From positions 3,100,001 to 3,164,000 of the forward strand of contig NZ_PEEU01000001.1 of NCBI RefSeq assembly GCF_002754195.1: 64,000 bases of DNA, in the 5' to 3' direction. The translations under genes and the position numbers were made by a program. The notes under the pieces were generated by a model. The model did no database searches. It was not told the origin of the DNA and worked only from the letters and a program-made list of their open reading frames with translations. Positions within the stretch are counted from its first letter, which is position 1. The number at the start of each line of letters is the position of its first letter. Source of the DNA: Flavobacterium sp. 9. GTDB lineage: Bacteria > Bacteroidota > Bacteroidia > Flavobacteriales > Flavobacteriaceae. Positions 8,669-18,582 of this stretch are shown here, one piece after another.

Positions 8669-10246
8669 ATGGCGGAAATCAAACCTGCTGAAATTTCAGC
8701 AATATTAAGAAAGCAAGTAGAAGGTTTTGAATCTGGTGCTACGCTAGAGGAAGTAGGAACGGTACTTCAAGTTGGAGACGGTATTGCTCGTATTTACGGG
8801 CTATCTAATGTACAATACGGTGAGTTAGTTGAATTTGAAAACGGACTTGAAGCTATTGTATTGAACCTTGAAGAAGACAATGTTGGTGTGGTACTTTTAG
8901 GACCATCAACAGGAATCAAAGAAGGATCAACAGCAAAAAGAACACAACGTATTGCTTCTCTTAAAGTAGGTGAGCAAATGGTTGGACGTGTTGTTAACAC
9001 TCTTGGTTTTCCAATTGATGGAAAAGGACCAATTGGTGGAGACTTATACGAGATGCCTTTAGAAAGAAAAGCTCCTGGAGTTATCTTCCGTCAGCCAGTT
9101 ACTGAGCCATTACAAACAGGTATTAAAGCGGTAGATGCTATGATCCCGGTTGGTCGTGGACAACGTGAGCTTGTAATTGGTGACCGTCAAACAGGTAAAT
9201 CAACTGTTTGTATCGATACAATCTTAAATCAAAAAGAATTTTACGATGCAGGAAAACCTGTATTCTGTATATATGTTGCAATTGGGCAAAAAGCTTCAAC
9301 TGTAGCAGGAATTGCTAAAATGTTAGAAGAAAAAGGTGCAATGGCTTATACAGTTATTGTTGCAGCTAATGCTTCTGATCCAGCTCCAATGCAAGTTTAT
9401 GCTCCTTTCGCAGGTGCTGCAATTGGTGAGTATTTTAGAGATTCAGGTCGTCCGGCTTTAATTGTTTATGATGATTTATCTAAACAAGCTGTTGCTTACC
9501 GTGAGGTTTCTCTTTTATTAAGAAGACCACCGGGACGTGAGGCATATCCTGGAGACGTTTTCTACTTACACTCTCGTTTATTAGAGCGTGCTTGTAAAGT
9601 AATTGCAGATAATGGAATTGCTAAAAACATGAACGATTTACCAGATTCTATTAAGTCTATCGTAAAAGGTGGTGGTTCATTAACTGCTTTACCAATTATC
9701 GAAACTCAGGCTGGTGACGTTTCTGCATATATCCCAACAAACGTAATCTCGATTACAGATGGTCAGATTTTCCTTGATGGAGATTTGTTCAACTCTGGAG
9801 TTCGTCCTGCGATCAACGTAGGTATCTCTGTATCTCGTGTTGGAGGTAATGCTCAGATTAAATCTATGAAAAAAGTTTCTGGAACTTTAAAATTAGACCA
9901 AGCTCAATTCCGTGAATTAGAAGCTTTCGCTAAATTTGGTTCTGACTTAGATTCTGTTACTTTAAACGTAATTGAAAAAGGAAAAAGAAACGTTGAAATC
10001 TTGAAACAAGGTTTGAACGATCCTTATCCAGTAGAAAATCAAGTAGCTATTATTTATGCAGGTTCTAAAAACTTATTGAAAAGTGTTCCTGTAAATAAAG
10101 TAAAAGAATTTGAAGCTGATTTCTTAGCTTACTTAAACAGCAAACATAAAGATACGCTTAACGCGTTGAAAGCTGGTAAGTTAGATGACAACATTACTGA
10201 TGTTATCGAAAAAGCAGCAAAAGAAATTTCAGCAAAATATATCTAA
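8669..10246 (+). CDS. atpA: ATP synthase F1 subunit alpha
   Basis: 525 residues, the non-catalytic nucleotide-binding subunit of F1. The N-terminal beta-barrel domain is followed by the P-loop GDRQTGKST, the DELSD-like strand [13 protein letters not shown], and the alpha-subunit region with [22 protein letters not shown] that contributes the arginine finger to the beta active site. The C-terminal helical bundle is complete. Coding usage shows highly-expressed-gene character (many CGT Arg codons and GGT Gly codons). Confidence 0.97.
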
Positions 10247-10309: not shown

Positions 10310-10338
10310 TCAAATTGTCACATTTTTTTAATCGACAA

Positions 10339-11199
10339 ATGGCAAATTTAAAGGAAATCCGTAATAGAATTACTTCCGTTTCATCGACGATGCAAATTAC
10401 ATCGGCAATGAAAATGGTTTCTGCAGCAAAGCTTAAGAAAGCACAAGATGCAATCACTGCGATGCGCCCTTATGCCGAGAAATTAACGGAATTGTTGCAA
10501 AATCTTTCTGCTACACTTGATGGTGAAGTTGGAGGTGATTATACAACACAACGTGAAGTAAAAAAAGTATTGCTTGTTGCTATAACTTCAAACAGAGGTT
10601 TATGTGGAGCATTTAATGCAAATATTATTAAAGAAGTTAAAAATCGTGCTGCTTTTTATGCTGGAAAACAAGTAGATGTTTTTCCTATTGGTAAAAAAGG
10701 AAATGATGTACTAAGTAAATCTTTTAAAGCACACGGTCACCATAATGCAATTTTCGATCATTTGACTTTTGATAATGTCGCTGGAATTGCTGATAATTTG
10801 ACTGAGAAATTTTTATCAGGAGAATATGACAGAATCGAATTGATCTACAATCAGTTTAAAAATGCTGCGACACAAATCGTTCAAACAGAACAATTTTTAC
10901 CGTTAGCACCAATTAAATCTGATGCACCGGTTTCTGGTGGAGATTATATTTTCGAACCTTCAAAAGAAGAAATTGTGTTGACTTTGATTCCAAAATCATT
11001 GAAAACTCAATTATACAAAGGTATTCGTGATTCATTTGCTTCAGAACATGGAGCGCGTATGACAGCAATGCACAAAGCAACTGACAACGCAACTGAATTA
11101 AGAAACCAATTAAAATTGACTTACAATAAAGCACGTCAGGCGGCTATTACAAACGAGATTCTTGAAATCGTTGGTGGAGCAGAAGCTTTGAACGGATAA
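10339..11199 (+). CDS. atpG: ATP synthase F1 subunit gamma
   Basis: 286 residues, central rotor shaft of F1. I chose ATG 10339 because it gives the canonical start MANLKEIRNRI; the frame extends to a TTG at 10315 but this would add eight unconserved residues. N-terminal coiled coil contains STMQITSAMKMVSAAKLKKAQ (split here for display) with the conserved ITSAMKMV motif. The middle domain has SNRGLCGAFN. The C-terminus carries the conserved ARQAAITNEILEIVGGAEAL segment. It ends the operon: no beta or epsilon gene follows. Confidence 0.96.
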   Translation: MANLKEIRNRITSVSSTMQITSAMKMVSAAKLKKAQDAITAMRPYAEKLTELLQNLSATLDGEVGGDYTTQREVKKVLLVAITSNRGLCGAFNANIIKEVKNRAAFYAGKQVDVFPIGKKGNDVLSKSFKAHGHHNAIFDHLTFDNVAGIADNLTEKFLSGEYDRIELIYNQFKNAATQIVQTEQFLPLAPIKSDAPVSGGDYIFEPSKEEIVLTLIPKSLKTQLYKGIRDSFASEHGARMTAMHKATDNATELRNQLKLTYNKARQAAITNEILEIVGGAEALNG

Positions 11200-11225: not shown

Positions 11226-11255
11226 GAGCTAACATTAACTTGTTAGCTTTTTTTT
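11226..11255 (+). terminator. Terminator of the ATP synthase operon
   Basis: AGCTAACA (11227-11234), loop TTAACT, TGTTAGCT (11241-11248), then an eight-base run of T. Perfect 8-bp stem 27 bases after the atpG stop. This is a convincing factor-independent terminator. Confidence 0.85.
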
Positions 11256-11595: not shown

Positions 11596-12273
11596 ATGAC
11601 AAAAGAAAGTTTTAATTGGAAGAGTCTTTTCATTAATGATGAAACAGATCAATCAGAGGGCAAAGCTGCAACTCAACCGTCCGCCCCAATTTTACCAACC
11701 ACAGACAATAAATTTCCCAATCAAGTTACAGAGTCATTTCCGACAAACTCATTGACTAACCCTTTCTTAAACGAAATTTTTGAAGTTTATGATAAAGGTT
11801 TTGAGTCATTGAATGAACCGGGTTTTGATTTTTTTGAACTTTATAAGTCAGTTATGGCTGTTGGAGTTACAAATCCGCAAAGTTATCAAATGGCTTTTGC
11901 AATGGGAAAATCAATTAAATCTGATTTGACTAAAGATTTTCTTTTGCAAAAAGGAAGTTTTTATATTACAGAAATTGAAAAAGTACATACTAAATATGAT
12001 ACTGTCGGTAAAAATAAAAAAGCAGAATTAGATAATACAATTACAAAAGAAAAATATAATTTATCCAAAAGTATTTCTGAATTAGAAGCCAAGATTCTTG
12101 AACTTCAAAAAGAATTGGAAGCTAAGAAAATAGAACTTCAAAAAATTGATCCTGTTAATATGGAACAGCTTTCGGAGATTCAATTGAAAATGGAAGCGAA
12201 TGATTTAGCAAAACAAAAAATATTAACCTCAATCAATACTGTAATCACAGGAATAAATCAATATTTACAATAA
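11596..12273 (+). CDS. Cytoplasmic coiled-coil protein, first gene of uncharacterised SBP-OmpA/ABC/AAA operon
   Basis: 225 residues, no signal peptide or membrane segment. The N-terminal ~55 residues are polar and disordered-looking (Pro, Ser, Thr, Asn rich). A compact helical part with FFELYKSVMAVGV follows, then a strong coiled coil at about residues 135-205 (LEAKILELQKELEAKKIELQ), ending in ITGINQYLQ. I do not recognise the family. Its TAA overlaps the next ATG by one base, so it is translationally coupled to the membrane coiled-coil protein and probably forms a complex with it. No catalytic residues are visible, so a scaffold or adaptor role is the most one can infer. Confidence 0.8.
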   Translation: MTKESFNWKSLFINDETDQSEGKAATQPSAPILPTTDNKFPNQVTESFPTNSLTNPFLNEIFEVYDKGFESLNEPGFDFFELYKSVMAVGVTNPQSYQMAFAMGKSIKSDLTKDFLLQKGSFYITEIEKVHTKYDTVGKNKKAELDNTITKEKYNLSKSISELEAKILELQKELEAKKIELQKIDPVNMEQLSEIQLKMEANDLAKQKILTSINTVITGINQYLQ

Positions 12274-13394
12274 TGGATAAATTCGAACAAGAAAGAAGCA
12301 CTCTTTTGACGTTGCCAATACTTAAACATTTTGACGAGTCTAAAGGAGAAATCGCTTTGAAATCAGGTGCGCTTAAAAAAGGAGAAAAGTCATTATTCTT
12401 AGCTTTGGCATTAGGTTTATTAGGAGTTGGAGGATATTTGGTATGGACTTATATTATCCCGCCATTATTTACAATGCTTGGTCAGGCAATTGCTTTATCT
12501 GCAACGGGAGTATTTTTAGTTTTCTTAGTTATGATGGCTCCTGTAATAATGAAAGCGCTTCGTTTTGCTACAAAAAACATTCATAAAGCATTAATTCAAA
12601 GTAATCCTTTTAATGAATTAGAAGAGCAAAAACAAAAAATGGTTAAAAACCGTGAAGTTTTTAAGAATACTAAAGCAAAGCTAAAAGGTCTTAAAAATGA
12701 AATGGAAATTGAAGCCAGTAAATCTGAAAAAGAAGCAAAAGGATTTCAGGAAGACGTTTTAAGTTTACAACGCCAGTCAGAAAAATTGAAATCTGCGATG
12801 GATGAAATGGTGAAGCAAAATGGTGTTGCTGCAAAAGATACTGATGAATATGTAGCTCTGCAAAGTGAGTTAGCCAGAAAGTTAAGTGATTCTCAAAGAG
12901 TTTCTACTCAATATGAACAAAGCAAAAGTTTTATTCAAAAATATGGTGTTCGTGCAAATGTTTTAGGAAAAATGGATCGTAAACTGACTTTGGCAGGAAC
13001 AGCTATTGATATTAAAATTGCTGATTTTGATGTTACGGTTAAGATGCTTCAAAAAGAATATGAATTTGCCAGAAATGCTAAAGAAGCAACAGAAAGTGCA
13101 AAAAGCGCGATGATGTTTACAAAAGACTGGGAATTAGAATATGCTCTTGAAGTGGTAACGTCTACTATTGCTCTGGATATTGCCAGAACTTCAGAAAACT
13201 TAATCGACATAGATGCTTTAACTTCTAAATATTCTGTTGATAATGATGAGCTTTATTCAAGATTAGATTCATTGGCAGATGAAATTAAAACAGGCGATAA
13301 TACAATTCCGGATTCAACAAAGTATACAAGTCCAAATTACAAAATGACCAAAGAAGATAAATTATCAAGTGGTGGTTTTGGAGATATTTTTTAA
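12273..13394 (+). CDS. Membrane-anchored coiled-coil protein, PspA-like in shape
   Basis: 373 residues. Two adjacent hydrophobic segments at about residues 40-66 and 70-95 form a hairpin anchor. A long, highly charged helical region at ~115-270 (repeated K/E heptads, with QRQSEKLKSAMDEM) is predicted to be coiled coil. The C-terminal tail is polar and ends GGFGDIF. Shape and composition recall PspA/ESCRT-III-like or so-called microtubule-binding annotations, but I see no diagnostic motif. Overlap with the upstream stop and 28-base spacing to the downstream substrate-binding gene place it inside one operon. It could couple the cytoplasmic coiled-coil protein to the membrane complex. Confidence 0.8.
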   Translation: MDKFEQERSTLLTLPILKHFDESKGEIALKSGALKKGEKSLFLALALGLLGVGGYLVWTYIIPPLFTMLGQAIALSATGVFLVFLVMMAPVIMKALRFATKNIHKALIQSNPFNELEEQKQKMVKNREVFKNTKAKLKGLKNEMEIEASKSEKEAKGFQEDVLSLQRQSEKLKSAMDEMVKQNGVAAKDTDEYVALQSELARKLSDSQRVSTQYEQSKSFIQKYGVRANVLGKMDRKLTLAGTAIDIKIADFDVTVKMLQKEYEFARNAKEATESAKSAMMFTKDWELEYALEVVTSTIALDIARTSENLIDIDALTSKYSVDNDELYSRLDSLADEIKTGDNTIPDSTKYTSPNYKMTKEDKLSSGGFGDIF

Positions 13395-13422
13395 TACAAT
13401 TAAATTTAATTTTTAGATAAAA

Positions 13423-15237
13423 ATGGGAAAAATTTTAAGAACAGAAAAGTTAACAACCTTTTCTGAATTACTTATCGTTATTGCTGGAATTGGTGCAATT
13501 CTAGGAGGAGTTTATTATATATCTCCAGGAATTAAAACCGCAGTTTCAAAACAATTAAATGGAATTGAACTGAATCAGACAGATGTTAATAATGTTACCA
13601 ATGCTGCAAAAATTGCGCTTCCATCTACTGAATTATCTTCAGAAGTTGCAGACAAACCTTTAGTAAGAATTGGTGCTTATGCTTGGAATGCTCAGTCTGG
13701 AATTATTGTTTCTAATGGTGGTCCAAAAACAACAAAAGGATCATTGATGGAGAAAAACGGAGTTAATCTTGAGATTATTCGTCAGGACTGGCTTTCGGAA
13801 TTGCGTAATATGCAAATGAAATTTATCGAAGAATTTGATAAAGGAGAAGCTTTTCCATCTTCAGAAAAAAGTGTTTTTGCAGTAATCATCATGGGTGATG
13901 GTGCGCCATTCTACATTAGTTCTGTTCAAAAATCACTTGACGAAAAATACGGAAAAGATAAATACCATGTTCAGGTAATGGGAGCAGTTGGTATGAGTTA
14001 TGGAGAAGATAAATTGATTGGACCACCAAGCTGGAAATCAGATCCAAAATCTATGAAAGGTTCAGTTATATCTGCAGTTCTTGGAGATGGTGACTGGGTT
14101 ACAACTGTAAACTATTGTTTTGCAAACGGATTAAAAGTAAATCCAGATCCAACAACATATGATGCAGAAGCAGTAAATATTTATCCATCAGAAAATGATG
14201 ATTATATTAAATCGGCAGAAGAATTGATCAAGTCTCAAACTACAGGATGGACTGTTACTTTGAAAGAAGTAGTTGACGGAAAATTAACTGGAAAATCTGT
14301 AAACAGAAAAATCGATGGTTGTGCTACTTGGACGCCTGGTGATAAAACTGTATTTGATAAATTGACTGGTTTTGTTGATATCGTTTCTACGAAAGAATTC
14401 AACAACCAAATGCCAACTACTATTATTGGTGTGAAAGAATGGGCTGTTAAAAATCCTGATATTGTTTCTAATATTTTGAAATCGGCATTGACGGCTTCAA
14501 ACCAAATGAAAAATTACGAAGATTGGAAAGTAAGAGCTTCTGAAGCAGTTGCTGCAACTTATAAACTTGAAACTCCGGAATATTGGTACAAAATGTTCAA
14601 AGGACAACAAGGAACAAAAGGCGGATTGACTTATAATATGGGAGGTTCAAAAGTATTTAACTATGCTGATGCAATGCAATATTATGGTTTATCTGATGGT
14701 GTAAACAGATACAAATCAGTTTATAATCAGGTTGCAGGATATTTGACAGAATTGAATCCATTTGGATTTAATGAAAATGTTGGAGCAGTTGTTCCTTACG
14801 ATCAAGCAGTTAACTTGTTCTTCTTGAAAAACATCAACGATATCGAATCTACTTCTGCAGACAAAGCAGATTATAGCAGCGAAGCAAAAGAAGTTGTAGC
14901 TTCTGGAGAATGGAAAATTAACTTTAATACCGGAAGTGCTGATATCTCAAACTCATCTAGTAAAGAAGTAGAAAAAATTTACAATCTTTTAGTACAAGCT
15001 GAGAACACAAAATTAACGGTTGTTGGACACACTGACAATGTTGGAAATGCTGATTCTAACTTAGCTTTATCAAAAAGCAGAGCGCAAGCAGTTGTAGATT
15101 ATCTAAAACAAAAAGGTATTCCTGCAAATCGTTTCCAATTAGTGGACGGAAAAGGTCAAAGTAATCCAATTGCAGATAATAATACTGCTTCTGGAAAAGC
15201 ACTAAACAGACGTGTGGTTATTACTTTATTAAAATAA
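13423..15237 (+). CDS. Membrane-anchored substrate-binding protein fused to OmpA domain
   Basis: 604 residues. A single hydrophobic segment at about 14-34 without a clear cleavage site suggests an inner-membrane anchor with the rest periplasmic. Residues ~75-440 resemble an NMT1/SsuA/TauA-type periplasmic binding domain (VRIGAYAWNAQSGIIVSNGG, later KEFNNQMPTTIIGVKEWA). Residues ~495-604 form an OmpA C-terminal domain, with the peptidoglycan-binding Asp in VVGHTDNVGN and Arg in LNRRVVI. The protein could therefore span from inner membrane to cell wall while binding a ligand. The permease and ATPase genes follow after a hairpin terminator. A binding protein locked to peptidoglycan is unusual for import and suggests sensing or force/stress coupling; this is inference. 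Confidence 0.85.
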   Translation: MGKILRTEKLTTFSELLIVIAGIGAILGGVYYISPGIKTAVSKQLNGIELNQTDVNNVTNAAKIALPSTELSSEVADKPLVRIGAYAWNAQSGIIVSNGGPKTTKGSLMEKNGVNLEIIRQDWLSELRNMQMKFIEEFDKGEAFPSSEKSVFAVIIMGDGAPFYISSVQKSLDEKYGKDKYHVQVMGAVGMSYGEDKLIGPPSWKSDPKSMKGSVISAVLGDGDWVTTVNYCFANGLKVNPDPTTYDAEAVNIYPSENDDYIKSAEELIKSQTTGWTVTLKEVVDGKLTGKSVNRKIDGCATWTPGDKTVFDKLTGFVDIVSTKEFNNQMPTTIIGVKEWAVKNPDIVSNILKSALTASNQMKNYEDWKVRASEAVAATYKLETPEYWYKMFKGQQGTKGGLTYNMGGSKVFNYADAMQYYGLSDGVNRYKSVYNQVAGYLTELNPFGFNENVGAVVPYDQAVNLFFLKNINDIESTSADKADYSSEAKEVVASGEWKINFNTGSADISNSSSKEVEKIYNLLVQAENTKLTVVGHTDNVGNADSNLALSKSRAQAVVDYLKQKGIPANRFQLVDGKGQSNPIADNNTASGKALNRRVVITLLK

Positions 15238-15244
15238 AAACAAT

Positions 15245-15275
15245 AAAAGGCTATCTTAAATAGATAGCCTTTTTT
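15245..15275 (+). terminator. Internal hairpin terminator between binding-protein and permease genes
   Basis: AAAAGGCTATCT (15245-15256), loop TAAAT, AGATAGCCTTTT with a T-run to 15275. The 12-bp perfect stem is strong. It lies 8 bases past the binding-protein stop and 10 before the permease ATG. It probably attenuates transcription so that the coiled-coil proteins and binding protein exceed the permease, ATPase and AAA+ protein. Confidence 0.85.
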
Positions 15276-15284
15276 ACAAGCAGT

Positions 15285-16055
15285 ATGATAAAAATTTTAA
15301 CGCCCTTTGAAAAAATATCAAAATTAAACAAAACGCTTATTTTGATAGGTTGGTTAGTTCTTTTGATTATTATTTGGTTTGCAGCAACATCTGGCGAAAA
15401 ACATCTTTTTCCTTCGCCGGCTCAGGTTTTAACCGGTTTTTCAGATCTGTATAAAGAAGGTTTGGTAGTGCATATTTTCAATTCATTGAAATTGTGTTTT
15501 ATCTCGATTTTTTTAGCCACAATTATTTCGTTGTTTTTTGCTTATGCATGGCCAATTCCGCTATTAAAATCAGTTTCTGAATTTATCACAAAATTTAGAT
15601 TTTTACCTTTTACCGGACTTTCATTTTATATTACAATGGTAATTCATGAAGCAAGAATGATGCAGGTTTGGATCTTAGTAATTTTCCTGACTACTTTTCT
15701 AACAACGTCATTAATTGCAGTTATCAAAGATATTCCGCAAGAAGAATTTGATCACGCAAAAATGCTAAAATGTAACCGTTGGGAAGTTCTTGTACAAGTC
15801 ATTATTTTGGGAAGAATAGATTATGTAATTGATGTAATCAGACAAAATCTTGCCATTACCTGGATGATGCTTGTTACGGTTGAATCGATTGTGGTAGCTT
15901 CTGGAGGATTAGGGTTTTTAATTAAAAACTCTGATAAATTTATGAATACCGGAAGAATCATTGCACTTCAAATTATCATTTTACTAATAGGTCTTGGCTT
16001 AGATGCAGGAATAAATTTCTTAAGAAAAGCAGTATTTAGATATTCAAAAATATAA
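15285..16055 (+). CDS. ABC transporter permease of SsuC/TauC/NrtB type
   Basis: 256 residues with about six membrane helices in the BPD_transp_1 arrangement. The EAA-like cytoplasmic loop, which docks on the ATPase, reads EFDHAKMLKCNRWEVLVQVI; the family consensus Gly is replaced by Cys-Asn (MLKCNRWE). The N-terminal helix carries LIGWLVLLIIIWFAA, then the family's typical FPSPAQVL motif. Importers of this family move nitrate, sulfonates or taurine with a periplasmic binding protein, here presumably the upstream OmpA fusion. ATPase gene follows 2 bases after the stop. Substrate unknown. Confidence 0.88.
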   Translation: MIKILTPFEKISKLNKTLILIGWLVLLIIIWFAATSGEKHLFPSPAQVLTGFSDLYKEGLVVHIFNSLKLCFISIFLATIISLFFAYAWPIPLLKSVSEFITKFRFLPFTGLSFYITMVIHEARMMQVWILVIFLTTFLTTSLIAVIKDIPQEEFDHAKMLKCNRWEVLVQVIILGRIDYVIDVIRQNLAITWMMLVTVESIVVASGGLGFLIKNSDKFMNTGRIIALQIIILLIGLGLDAGINFLRKAVFRYSKI

Positions 16056-16057
16056 TT

Positions 16058-16888
16058 ATGACACACGAATATAAAGAGACACTTTTGTATGTAGAAAATC
16101 TTAGCGTTGGTTATGATGATACAATTATTATAAAAGATATAAGTCTTATAGAGAAAGATGTTATTAGAGAAGGTGTTGATTGTACTGGTCAGGTTGTAGC
16201 TTTTGTTGGAAGATCAGGACGAGGAAAATCAACTTTCTTTAAAGCATTGACAGGATTAATTCCAACCAATTCCGGAAAAATATTAATTAGAGATTTCGAA
16301 AACAAAGAACCAAATGCAGCTAAACCTGTATGTGAAGGTGACATTGGTTTTGTAGATCAAAAATATACTTTGTTCAGACATAAAACAGTTACTCAGGCGT
16401 TGAAATTTTCATTAAGAAAAACAACACTTTCAAATACTGAAAAAGACGAAAAAATAAAGTTGTACCTAAAAGAATGGGGATTAGAAAATTGTAAAGATAA
16501 ATATCCTAATGAACTTTCCGGAGGACAAAGACAAAGAACCGCTATTATAGAGCAATTGTTTTCATCTGATCAATTTATTGTTTTAGATGAACCTTTTTCA
16601 GGATTAGATGTTGGAAATATCGAAGAAGTAAAAAAATCATTTGAATTATTAGGTAAATCATCTGAGTTTAATACTGTTATTTTTTCTACGCATGATATTG
16701 AATTGGCAATTGAATTAGCACAAACTATTTACGTTATTGGACATCCAACCATTAATGGGAAAAAAGAAAACTACGGAACTATTGTAGCAAAATACGACCT
16801 AAGAGACATGGGACTTTCATGGAAAGATTATTGCGATGATCACTTAAAATTATCAAAAGAAATTATTCATCAAATGATGATTTCTTAA
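16058..16888 (+). CDS. ABC transporter ATP-binding protein, partner of the SsuC-like permease
   Basis: 276 residues, one nucleotide-binding domain of the nitrate/sulfonate/taurine group. Walker A is GRSGRGKST, with Arg where the family usually has Cys. Q-loop VDQKY, signature LSGGQRQR, Walker B FIVLDEPFSGLD and H-loop STHD are intact, so ATP hydrolysis is expected. A small insertion with DVIREGVDCTGQ precedes the P-loop. The C-terminal ~60 residues extend past the core (YDLRDMGLSWKDYCDDHLK) and might be regulatory. It sits 2 bases after the permease, and the AAA+ gene starts 8 bases after its stop. Confidence 0.9.
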   Translation: MTHEYKETLLYVENLSVGYDDTIIIKDISLIEKDVIREGVDCTGQVVAFVGRSGRGKSTFFKALTGLIPTNSGKILIRDFENKEPNAAKPVCEGDIGFVDQKYTLFRHKTVTQALKFSLRKTTLSNTEKDEKIKLYLKEWGLENCKDKYPNELSGGQRQRTAIIEQLFSSDQFIVLDEPFSGLDVGNIEEVKKSFELLGKSSEFNTVIFSTHDIELAIELAQTIYVIGHPTINGKKENYGTIVAKYDLRDMGLSWKDYCDDHLKLSKEIIHQMMIS

Positions 16889-16896
16889 ATTTGAAT

Positions 16897-18429
16897 ATGT
16901 CAAAAAAGAACAATCCAATATCGATTATTGAAGAATCATTTTTGTCTCTAAAAAAATATTTAGAAACAAATGTATCTACAAATGAAGCCGTTTTTACGGC
17001 TTCATTTATTATAGAACTGCAAAAAGAAACCAAGCAGATTCTTGAAATATGCAATATATTAAATCAAGATACAGATTTTATTCAGAAGCTAAATGAAACC
17101 GTAAATCCAGTTTTTTCTAAAGGTTTATTGTTTAAAGCAGAACATTTTTTTCTTTCGGATATTATTGACCTTTATGAAAGAGAACCTGGAACGAAAAATG
17201 AAAAACAAGAATTTGTTCTCGCATATTATTATGATGCTTTACGTAATAAACATTTTGCAAACGAAAATTCTGTAAGCGAATTGAATCAGTTGGTTTTTAC
17301 AGAGAATTTCAAAAATCTTCTTGTAAAAATTAAAAAAGAGAATAAGATAATTACTTCGAATGTTCAGCAAAACTATTATGTACTTCCAGAAATAATTATC
17401 GAAAAGAAACATAAAGGTTTAGAAGAAATTCTAATCGAATATCAAAACTTCATTTATTTTACGTTTGGTAAAAAATTTGAAAGTACATCAACTTTCAGTA
17501 ATTATTTAGGTTTAAATCTGAATAAATCAAAAACTGATAAAAAAGAAATAGACAATCTTCCTGAAGAAGATACGCTGGAAAAAGTTCTGAAAGAATTAAA
17601 CGAACTCGTTGGTTTAGCAGAAGTAAAAAAAGATGTTTCGGAATTAATCAATCTTTTAGAAATACAAAAAAAGCGATCAAAGCAAGGATTGAAAAATGTT
17701 GAAATTACTTTGCATACCGTTTTTCTAGGCCCGCCGGGAACCGGGAAAACTTCTGTAGCAAGACTTTTAAGTAGAATTTTTAAACATTTGGGTTTTTTAT
17801 CCAAAGGTCAAATGTTTGAAACAGACAGAGAAGGTTTAGTCGCGGGTTATGTCGGGCAAACAGCAACAAAAGTCAATAATGCAGTAGAATCAAGTCTTGG
17901 CGGAGTATTGTTTATTGATGAAGCTTATGCATTAACTCAAAATGCATTTGGAAATGATTATGGAGGAGAAGCTGTAAATACGCTTTTGAAAAGAATGGAA
18001 GATCATCGGGAAGATCTGGCTGTCGTGGTTGCAGGATACACAGAACCTATGAAAATTTTTATAGAATCAAATCCAGGATTGCGTTCTCGTTTCAACAGAT
18101 ACTTTCATTTTGATCATTTTACACCTTCAGAATTATTTCAAATTTTTGAATCATTTTGTTCGAAATCAGATTTTATTATTTCTGAAGAAGCCAAAGAAAA
18201 ACTAACAGATACTTTTGAATTACTTTACGAAAGTAAAAATGAAAGTTTTGGAAATGCCAGAGTCGTTCGAAATTTATTTGAAAAATGCGTTCAGAATCAG
18301 GCAAATCGAATTGTGAAAATTAAAAAACTCACGAATAAAGTTTTAAAAACATTTACAGAAGAAGACATTCCGGAACCAAAAGAAACGGAGCAAAATGTTA
18401 ATCTTGAAATGAAAAGTAAAGAACAATAA
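16897..18429 (+). CDS. CbxX/CfxQ (SpoVK)-type AAA+ ATPase
   Basis: 510 residues. ATG 16897 is preferred over the in-frame TTG two codons earlier. The N-terminal ~200 residues are helical and unrecognised. A linker and the family's entry motif ELVGLAEVKKDV lead into the AAA+ domain, with Walker A GPPGTGKTS near residue 278, the pore-loop region REGLVAGYVGQTATK, Walker B LFIDEAY near 338, and sensor/arginine motifs GLRSRFNRYFHF. The C-terminal helical lid contains GNARVVRNLFEKC. CbxX-type proteins remodel other proteins: Rubisco for CbbX, and various secretion or sporulation complexes for others. Here it likely acts on the ABC or coiled-coil partners. Last gene of the operon. Confidence 0.88.
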   Translation: MSKKNNPISIIEESFLSLKKYLETNVSTNEAVFTASFIIELQKETKQILEICNILNQDTDFIQKLNETVNPVFSKGLLFKAEHFFLSDIIDLYEREPGTKNEKQEFVLAYYYDALRNKHFANENSVSELNQLVFTENFKNLLVKIKKENKIITSNVQQNYYVLPEIIIEKKHKGLEEILIEYQNFIYFTFGKKFESTSTFSNYLGLNLNKSKTDKKEIDNLPEEDTLEKVLKELNELVGLAEVKKDVSELINLLEIQKKRSKQGLKNVEITLHTVFLGPPGTGKTSVARLLSRIFKHLGFLSKGQMFETDREGLVAGYVGQTATKVNNAVESSLGGVLFIDEAYALTQNAFGNDYGGEAVNTLLKRMEDHREDLAVVVAGYTEPMKIFIESNPGLRSRFNRYFHFDHFTPSELFQIFESFCSKSDFIISEEAKEKLTDTFELLYESKNESFGNARVVRNLFEKCVQNQANRIVKIKKLTNKVLKTFTEEDIPEPKETEQNVNLEMKSKEQ

Positions 18430-18434
18430 AAGGA

Positions 18435-18464
18435 AAAGAGTCGACAAGAAATTGCCGACTCTTT
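18435..18464 (+). terminator. Terminator of the SBP-OmpA/ABC/AAA operon
   Basis: AAAGAGTCG (18435-18443) pairs with CGACTCTTT (18456-18464). Inside, CAA and TTG can pair further after one mismatch. It lies 6 bases after the AAA+ stop. The T-run is short (CTTTC), so it is a moderate-strength terminator. Confidence 0.75.
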
Positions 18465-18582
18465 CATATATATAGGGTTGTTATTTTTGAAGTTAACTTA
18501 TAAAATGGTGATTCCCGCCTTACTCAAAAACCGAGAATCAGTACCATTTTATAAAATTAGACACAGATATATCACTCTGCAG

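Follow-up and report, generated by a model that had tools for sequence, protein, structure and literature searches.

An operon of bacteria and huge phages for a putative ABC importer with a PspA-like partner and a wall-tethered binding protein

Six plus-strand genes, g1–g6, lie at 11596..18429 of the 64,000-nt window of Flavobacterium sp. 9 analysed here (NZ_PEEU01000001.1, 3,100,001–3,164,000, forward; the genome is a single contig of 6.33 Mb with its best protein matches in Flavobacterium, and coordinates are those of the window). The gene set is real and syntenic, and we give slightly better than even weight to the reading that it encodes an ATP-binding cassette (ABC) importer whose binding protein is tethered to the wall and which has a PspA-like partner, the set being common to huge phages as well. 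The importer reading is supported by the predicted fold of g3, by the families and motifs of g4 and g5, and by the order g1–g5 in both bacteria and phages. Operons of this kind have been described before, though not characterised as far as we found.

The g3 protein comprises an inner-membrane signal anchor (residues 16–34), a binding domain (~77–470) and an OmpA-like peptidoglycan-binding domain (~492–604), and the predicted fold of its binding domain is that of importer binding proteins of the TauA/CmpA class. Such proteins are usually soluble or lipid-anchored; g3 instead has a transmembrane (TM) anchor and an OmpA domain. The g4 permease matched TauC (56 bits, E 4e-15) and SaoP (54 bits) in NCBIfam, both below the equivalog cut-off (342 for TauC), so that the assignment holds at family level only. 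In the whole 6.3 Mb genome, BPD_transp_1 gave just two matches at E 0.001, one of them g4, below the cut-off. The g5 protein matched the Pfam ABC ATPase family with 90.8 bits, and its Walker A, signature, Walker B and H-loop motifs were all intact. The initial annotation had suggested a possible trans-envelope sensor or cargo-handling complex and set it against a nutrient importer. The idea that a complex spans the envelope holds; the importer fold of the binding domain and a strict ATPase motif match at 143 of 157 loci speak against setting the importer aside.

Gene order was then compared across bacterial loci, taken as the best 80 of 223 encoding loci retrieved by scanning genomes with a g3 alignment of 14 sequences; these are not fully independent (L042=L085, L043=L104, L044=L106, L045=L092), and some stop at contig ends. 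The results showed g1–g5 in order at 65/80 of these named-genome loci, where a g1 homologue precedes g2, as it also does on one truncated contig. The g6 gene followed g5 in 36 of the 65, a g6-family AAA+ gene lay upstream in 19 (Aquimarina, Cellulophaga, Marivirga and others), and no g6 was near in 10. At 11/80 loci, mostly from Saprospiraceae metagenome-assembled genomes (MAGs) plus Neolewinella, g3–g4–g5 stood without adjoining g1–g2, and the remaining 4/80 held fewer genes on short or cut contigs. These 11 loci would suit a plain g3–g5 importer in which g1, g2 and g6 are passengers, by chance or through loose regulation, an explanation that we regard as very improbable. Gene order is kept in phages and in several bacterial families, and each of the 11 genomes concerned encodes g2 homologues elsewhere (best E between 8e-50 and 1e-97; mostly two copies). 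Rare joint occurrence had been named as a ground for dropping the grouping; the genes do occur together. Additionally, a g1 homologue adjoined g2 in 6 of 12 stretches inspected, one of which was a second, distant-type module in the genome of L152. In genome G852 (L322/L331), g1–g2 preceded another solute-binding protein (SBP)–OmpA type, a 532-residue TM–NMT1–OmpA fusion (NMT1 45 bits, cut-off 20.5; OmpA 66 bits), followed by one further gene and then a TauC-like permease; that stretch yielded no g5-type ATPase. The g2 genes elsewhere, the second module of G852, the similarity of g2 to PspA and the T4-type capsid and portal genes described below all count in favour of the preferred reading. As a separate observation, the genome of L152 (Niastella populi) holds its second module (L328) as a complete g1–g5 set beside the near-type one.

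Carriage by phages was observed directly. Among 50,697 INPHARED records, LR756500.1 alone was matched, by g2 and by two g3 queries; it is an uncultured huge phage of 462,018 bases with g1–g5 in order and one small open reading frame (ORF) between g3 and g4. Together with 80 loci kept of 87 from IMG/VR it gave 81 viral loci, which include near-copies (W01/G464, G452/G453 and others). The five genes were in order on 69/81, the other 12 holding fewer genes. The co-inheritance of the genes holds. We checked 22 viral records, mostly the largest, for capsid genes: T4-type major capsid protein exceeded the cut-off in 10, portal in 11 and terminase in 10. Capsid and portal occurred together on 10/22 records of 206 to 462 kb (two pairs being near-copies), nine of which also had terminase. 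The other 12 records, 9 of them in the distant g3 clade, yielded one portal alone and one terminase alone, and could represent plasmids, bacterial fragments or phages of another kind. The T4-like L209 (224 kb) falls in the distant g3 clade, which brings the lineages of the module in phages to at least two.

A secreted barrel-like ORF of ~150 residues was present between g3 and g4 in 18/76 viral loci (several near-copies, carriers including L156, L158, L162, L201, L206 and L220) and in 0/87 bacterial loci. A further barrel-like ORF, outside those 18, overlaps g3 with its start in L199. No Pfam family was found in two examples scanned, nor a PHROG in one, and the name outer-membrane barrel is a putative reading of the ORF sequence. 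The flanks of the viral modules include dihydrofolate reductase and tRNA synthetase genes, and no consistent enzyme pointing to a ligand was seen among the neighbours inspected. Among the recurrent small genes nearby (examples L164, L178 and L199) were a UVR-motif protein in 29/81 viral loci and a multi-TM protein of ~149 residues in 26/81, and a few related viral contigs had a DNA-ligase-like ORF in the flank by eye. The APS (adenosine 5'-phosphosulfate) kinase gene near the module in L199 (1100-2170) and in L206 encodes a cytidylyltransferase-like domain as well.

The g6 protein consists of AAA and AAA_lid_6 domains, with SpoVK, EccA and CbbX as the closest families, behind ~230 N-terminal residues without a Pfam family; the idea that these form an inactive AAA domain was unsupported (hhalign 0.6%). 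Because it lay near 57/80 named-genome loci but, on the same strand within the 12 kb examined, near 0/81 viral loci, g6 looks accessory, and the initial view of the AAA+ protein as a constant part does not stand; searches of 10 whole phage records gave no match. This pattern bears on a rival in which the operon is an obligate ESCRT-III/Vps4-like machine, g6 disassembling g1/g2 polymers with the transporter as cargo. That rival draws on the frequent bacterial pairing with g6 and on the stress that the text of Ravi et al. (2024; PMC11237479) lays on PspA/Snf7 with AAA+ proteins. It also has to accommodate the absence from the phage loci, where hosts could supply another AAA+ protein, and a g6 of CbbX/SpoVK type with AAA_lid_6 rather than of Vps4 type: the 18 Pfam families listed for it to E 1 included no MIT or Vps4 family. 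We consider it improbable.

For the coiled-coil pair, hydropathy showed no TM segment in g1, whose short N-terminal hydrophobic motif and C-terminal coil are by-eye readings. The g2 protein has TM helices at ~41–59 and ~75–93 by hydropathy, followed by a helical hairpin with arms at 114–189 and 191–280; its AlphaFold2 (AF2) model had a mean predicted local distance difference test score (pLDDT) of 75.8, with block means of 91–97 across residues 131–230. The evidence that this two-TM protein carries a coiled coil of PspA-like type is moderate. PspA_IM30 topped the Pfam results in all three Hymenobacter-like g2 homologues (E 4e-8 to 8e-7; 29.3–33.5 bits against a cut-off of 33.9), and one whole-genome match of PF04012 above the cut-off (35.8 bits) fell at a g2 gene. 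Similarly, hhalign gave 82.6% over 158 columns between the distant g2 clade and PspA, with reversed controls at 8.4% or less. Like PspA/Vipp1 (IM30) and bacterial ESCRT-III proteins, g2 has a DP motif and then a long helical hairpin; it differs in the two TM helices ahead of the hairpin, and the profile similarity is that of the distant g2 clade. A canonical PspA gene was also seen ~16 kb from the module in a Flavobacterium genome (L234; G142:C7:120798-121478). TelA/XpaC as the identity of the pair found no support from profiles or in the literature searched.

Several observations weigh against the preferred reading. PspA_IM30 was not found in the other two g2 homologues scanned beside the Hymenobacter-like three, and among six further homologues it appeared in one only, weakly (16.3 bits). 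The Pfam scan of the window g2 gave no PF04012, a family that matched nothing across the window genome. Compared alone, the named-genome g2 set, window g2 included, reached an hhalign value of 6.4% with PspA, and a canonical PspA profile, which contained one misread sequence (L233), matched 3/26 distant g2 proteins and 0/119 others. Foldseek with g2 placed Vipp1 (7o3w) at rank 19 (E 0.35), and generic coiled coils ranked as high as Vipp1 and ESCRT-III. On the importer side, importers do not usually have a binding protein fixed at each end, the 11 lone g3–g5 loci count as well, and the neighbours gave no clue to a ligand (APS kinase near the module in 2/81 viral loci, bestrophin in 2/81).

The double tether and the PspA-like partner would also suit a sensor or tether instead of an importer, in which g3 senses a solute or the membrane–wall distance and the ABC pair, as a signalling or mechanical unit, drives the PspA-like layer in the manner of an envelope stress response. 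In three Hymenobacter-like loci g5 is followed by an NtrC-type sigma-54 response regulator (L039, L040 and L041, the last with an extra ORF between), and a histidine kinase follows the regulator in L039 and L040, all by eye. However, the binding domain has an importer fold, the ATPase motifs are conserved, no such regulators adjoin the window operon, and none were seen among the recurrent neighbours listed; we regard a sensor as unlikely, though deserving some weight.

Under the importer reading, g3, g4 and g5 would act together as an ABC importer in the taurine/sulfonate/nitrate/bicarbonate class, presumably working inwards. The N-terminal helix of g3 would hold it in the inner membrane while its C-terminal OmpA domain grips the wall, and because of this double anchoring ligand would be captured and delivered at one set position between the membrane and the peptidoglycan. 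The PspA/ESCRT-III-like hairpin of g2 would probably lie on the cytoplasmic side, where g2 and the soluble g1 may assemble around or next to the transporter in a putative complex that shapes or guards the membrane. Where present, g6 might remodel the g1–g2–transporter assembly with ATP. Huge phages would retain the five-gene core, some adding the secreted barrel-like protein. More tentatively, at somewhat less than even confidence, we propose an ABC class in which the binding protein builds the transporter into the wall and g1–g2 build it into a PspA/ESCRT-III-like layer. Huge T4-like phages would carry its five-gene core, sometimes with an outer-membrane barrel, and use it during infection to preserve the host envelope or to alter uptake. 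If true, phages would carry a trans-envelope machine that is coupled to an ESCRT-III-like protein. Its carriage suggests a machine useful enough for viruses to bring along, and the five core genes without the AAA+ gene show which parts belong together and point to a host-envelope function in infection. A role in protecting or reshaping membranes is generally assumed for PspA/ESCRT-III proteins; a compact five- or six-gene set in a cultivable Flavobacterium that ties a PspA-like protein to a defined transporter and the wall makes it testable what they act with in most bacteria.

The initial annotation knew of no characterised system with this composition. The operon type is in fact in print, and the other half of the statement stands in that no experiment on such an operon was found in the literature searched. 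The text of Ravi et al. (PMC11237479) reports operons with PspA, a TM-bearing Snf7 homologue, AAA+, ABC ATPase, permease and a binding-protein/OmpA fusion (example OGG56892.1), the same parts list as in the window by comparison of the text. It treats them as a PSP (phage shock protein)/ESCRT-III-associated operon and proposes that membrane remodelling is linked to the transport of solutes, and this outline agrees with an importer joined to remodelling. Here, by comparison, the AAA+ protein is of CbbX/SpoVK type and often outside the cluster, g1 cannot be recognised as a PspA protein, and huge phages carry the module; a term search of the main text of PMC11237479 found no such carriage, although a figure legend includes a viral column and viral members may have been seen. 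No report of phage carriage was found in the literature searched, which for PMC7162821, PMC9723777 and PMC13037316 covered the main texts, supplements excluded, by the terms transporter, OmpA and PspA. As far as searched, phage-borne g1–g5, the accessory AAA+, g2 in trans and the second SBP–OmpA type are new.

Relative to TauABC, SsuABC, NrtABC and CmpABCD, the binding protein here is TM-anchored and OmpA-fused, and coiled-coil partners are added. MotB/PomB and the TagL/TssL anchors of the type VI secretion system (T6SS) combine a single inner-membrane helix with a C-terminal OmpA domain; g3 has the same ends but a solute-binding domain between them.

On the evidence of two g3 trees, transfer between phages and bacteria may have run either way. 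In the first (97 rows, with 54 viral g3 rows at <90% identity), near-clade bacteria were nested among phages. For the second (90 rows), 28 more bacterial sequences were offered, the redundancy cut was 85% where it had been 90%, and 9 long-branch or unsure rows were excluded. There, 25/26 near-clade phage rows fell in one supported clade beside Flavobacteriaceae, and all 26 formed one side of a branch with a support of just 46; a constraint grouping all 29 near-clade bacteria was not rejected (p-AU 0.23). The viral L216, beyond the 22 records checked for capsid genes, grouped among Hymenobacter-like bacteria. Copies in MAGs assigned to Limnohabitans and Thermoanaerobaculia (L109 and L135) grouped with Flavobacterium and Saprospiraceae and are probable binning contamination.

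The hairpin between g3 and g4 is conserved in bacterial operons. From 40 bacterial g1–g6 loci (4 duplicates), 7 had gaps out of range and 33 were scored; 29/33 had a stem of 7 or more contiguous pairs in which the pair types were compensatory, and a T-rich tail was counted in 30 of the 33. The g2–g3 gap, used as a control, had a stem in 0/39. Binding-protein genes of other importers are known for a higher product level than their transporter partners, and the hairpin would fit more product from g1–g3 than from g4–g6.

The six-gene plus-strand composition and the flanking hairpins were confirmed (Table 1). Genes named from sequence as those of ATP synthase lie 5' of the operon (atpA 8669-10246, atpG 10315-11199), and a GNAT acetyltransferase gene and a flippase-like gene lie 3'. 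Because atpG and the flippase gene both flank the module in 30 loci (28 without known duplicates), its site in Flavobacterium is fixed.

Table 1. Features of the operon and its borders in the window
Feature	Coordinates	Strand	Description
Hairpin with T tail	11227..11248	.	3' of atpG, upstream operon boundary
g1	11596..12273	+	225-residue soluble protein: N-terminal hydrophobic motif, variable linker, C-terminal coiled coil
g2	12273..13394	+	Two TM helices and long helical hairpin; PspA/IM30-like
g3	13423..15237	+	TM anchor, TauA/CmpA-class binding domain, OmpA-like domain
Internal hairpin	15245..15273	+	Terminator-like, between g3 and g4
g4	15285..16055	+	TauC/SsuC-type ABC permease
g5	16058..16888	+	ABC ATPase: Walker A, signature, Walker B, H-loop
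g6	16891..18429	+	CbbX/SpoVK-type AAA+; lineage-specific accessory
Hairpin	18434..18465	.	3' of g6, possible operon end

PHROGs and PADLOC recognised no system among the window proteins, and weak MotB-like ZorB matches stemmed from the OmpA domain of g3. A plasmid search with g3 returned 639 records, and in none did any single place span 80% of the query; the matches in the 15 rows listed lay at the OmpA end, and one of them extended back to residue 405. Across the window genome and 36 same-genus relatives, full-length g3 was present in the window genome and G008 only, a patchy distribution in the genus, and the binding-domain part of g3 was found in 8/395 Bacteroidota genomes, the window's own counted. 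In the order to which G309 belongs, g3 had matches in 36 of 396 genomes, the long ones at 62–68% or 33–42% identity and the others short or weak.

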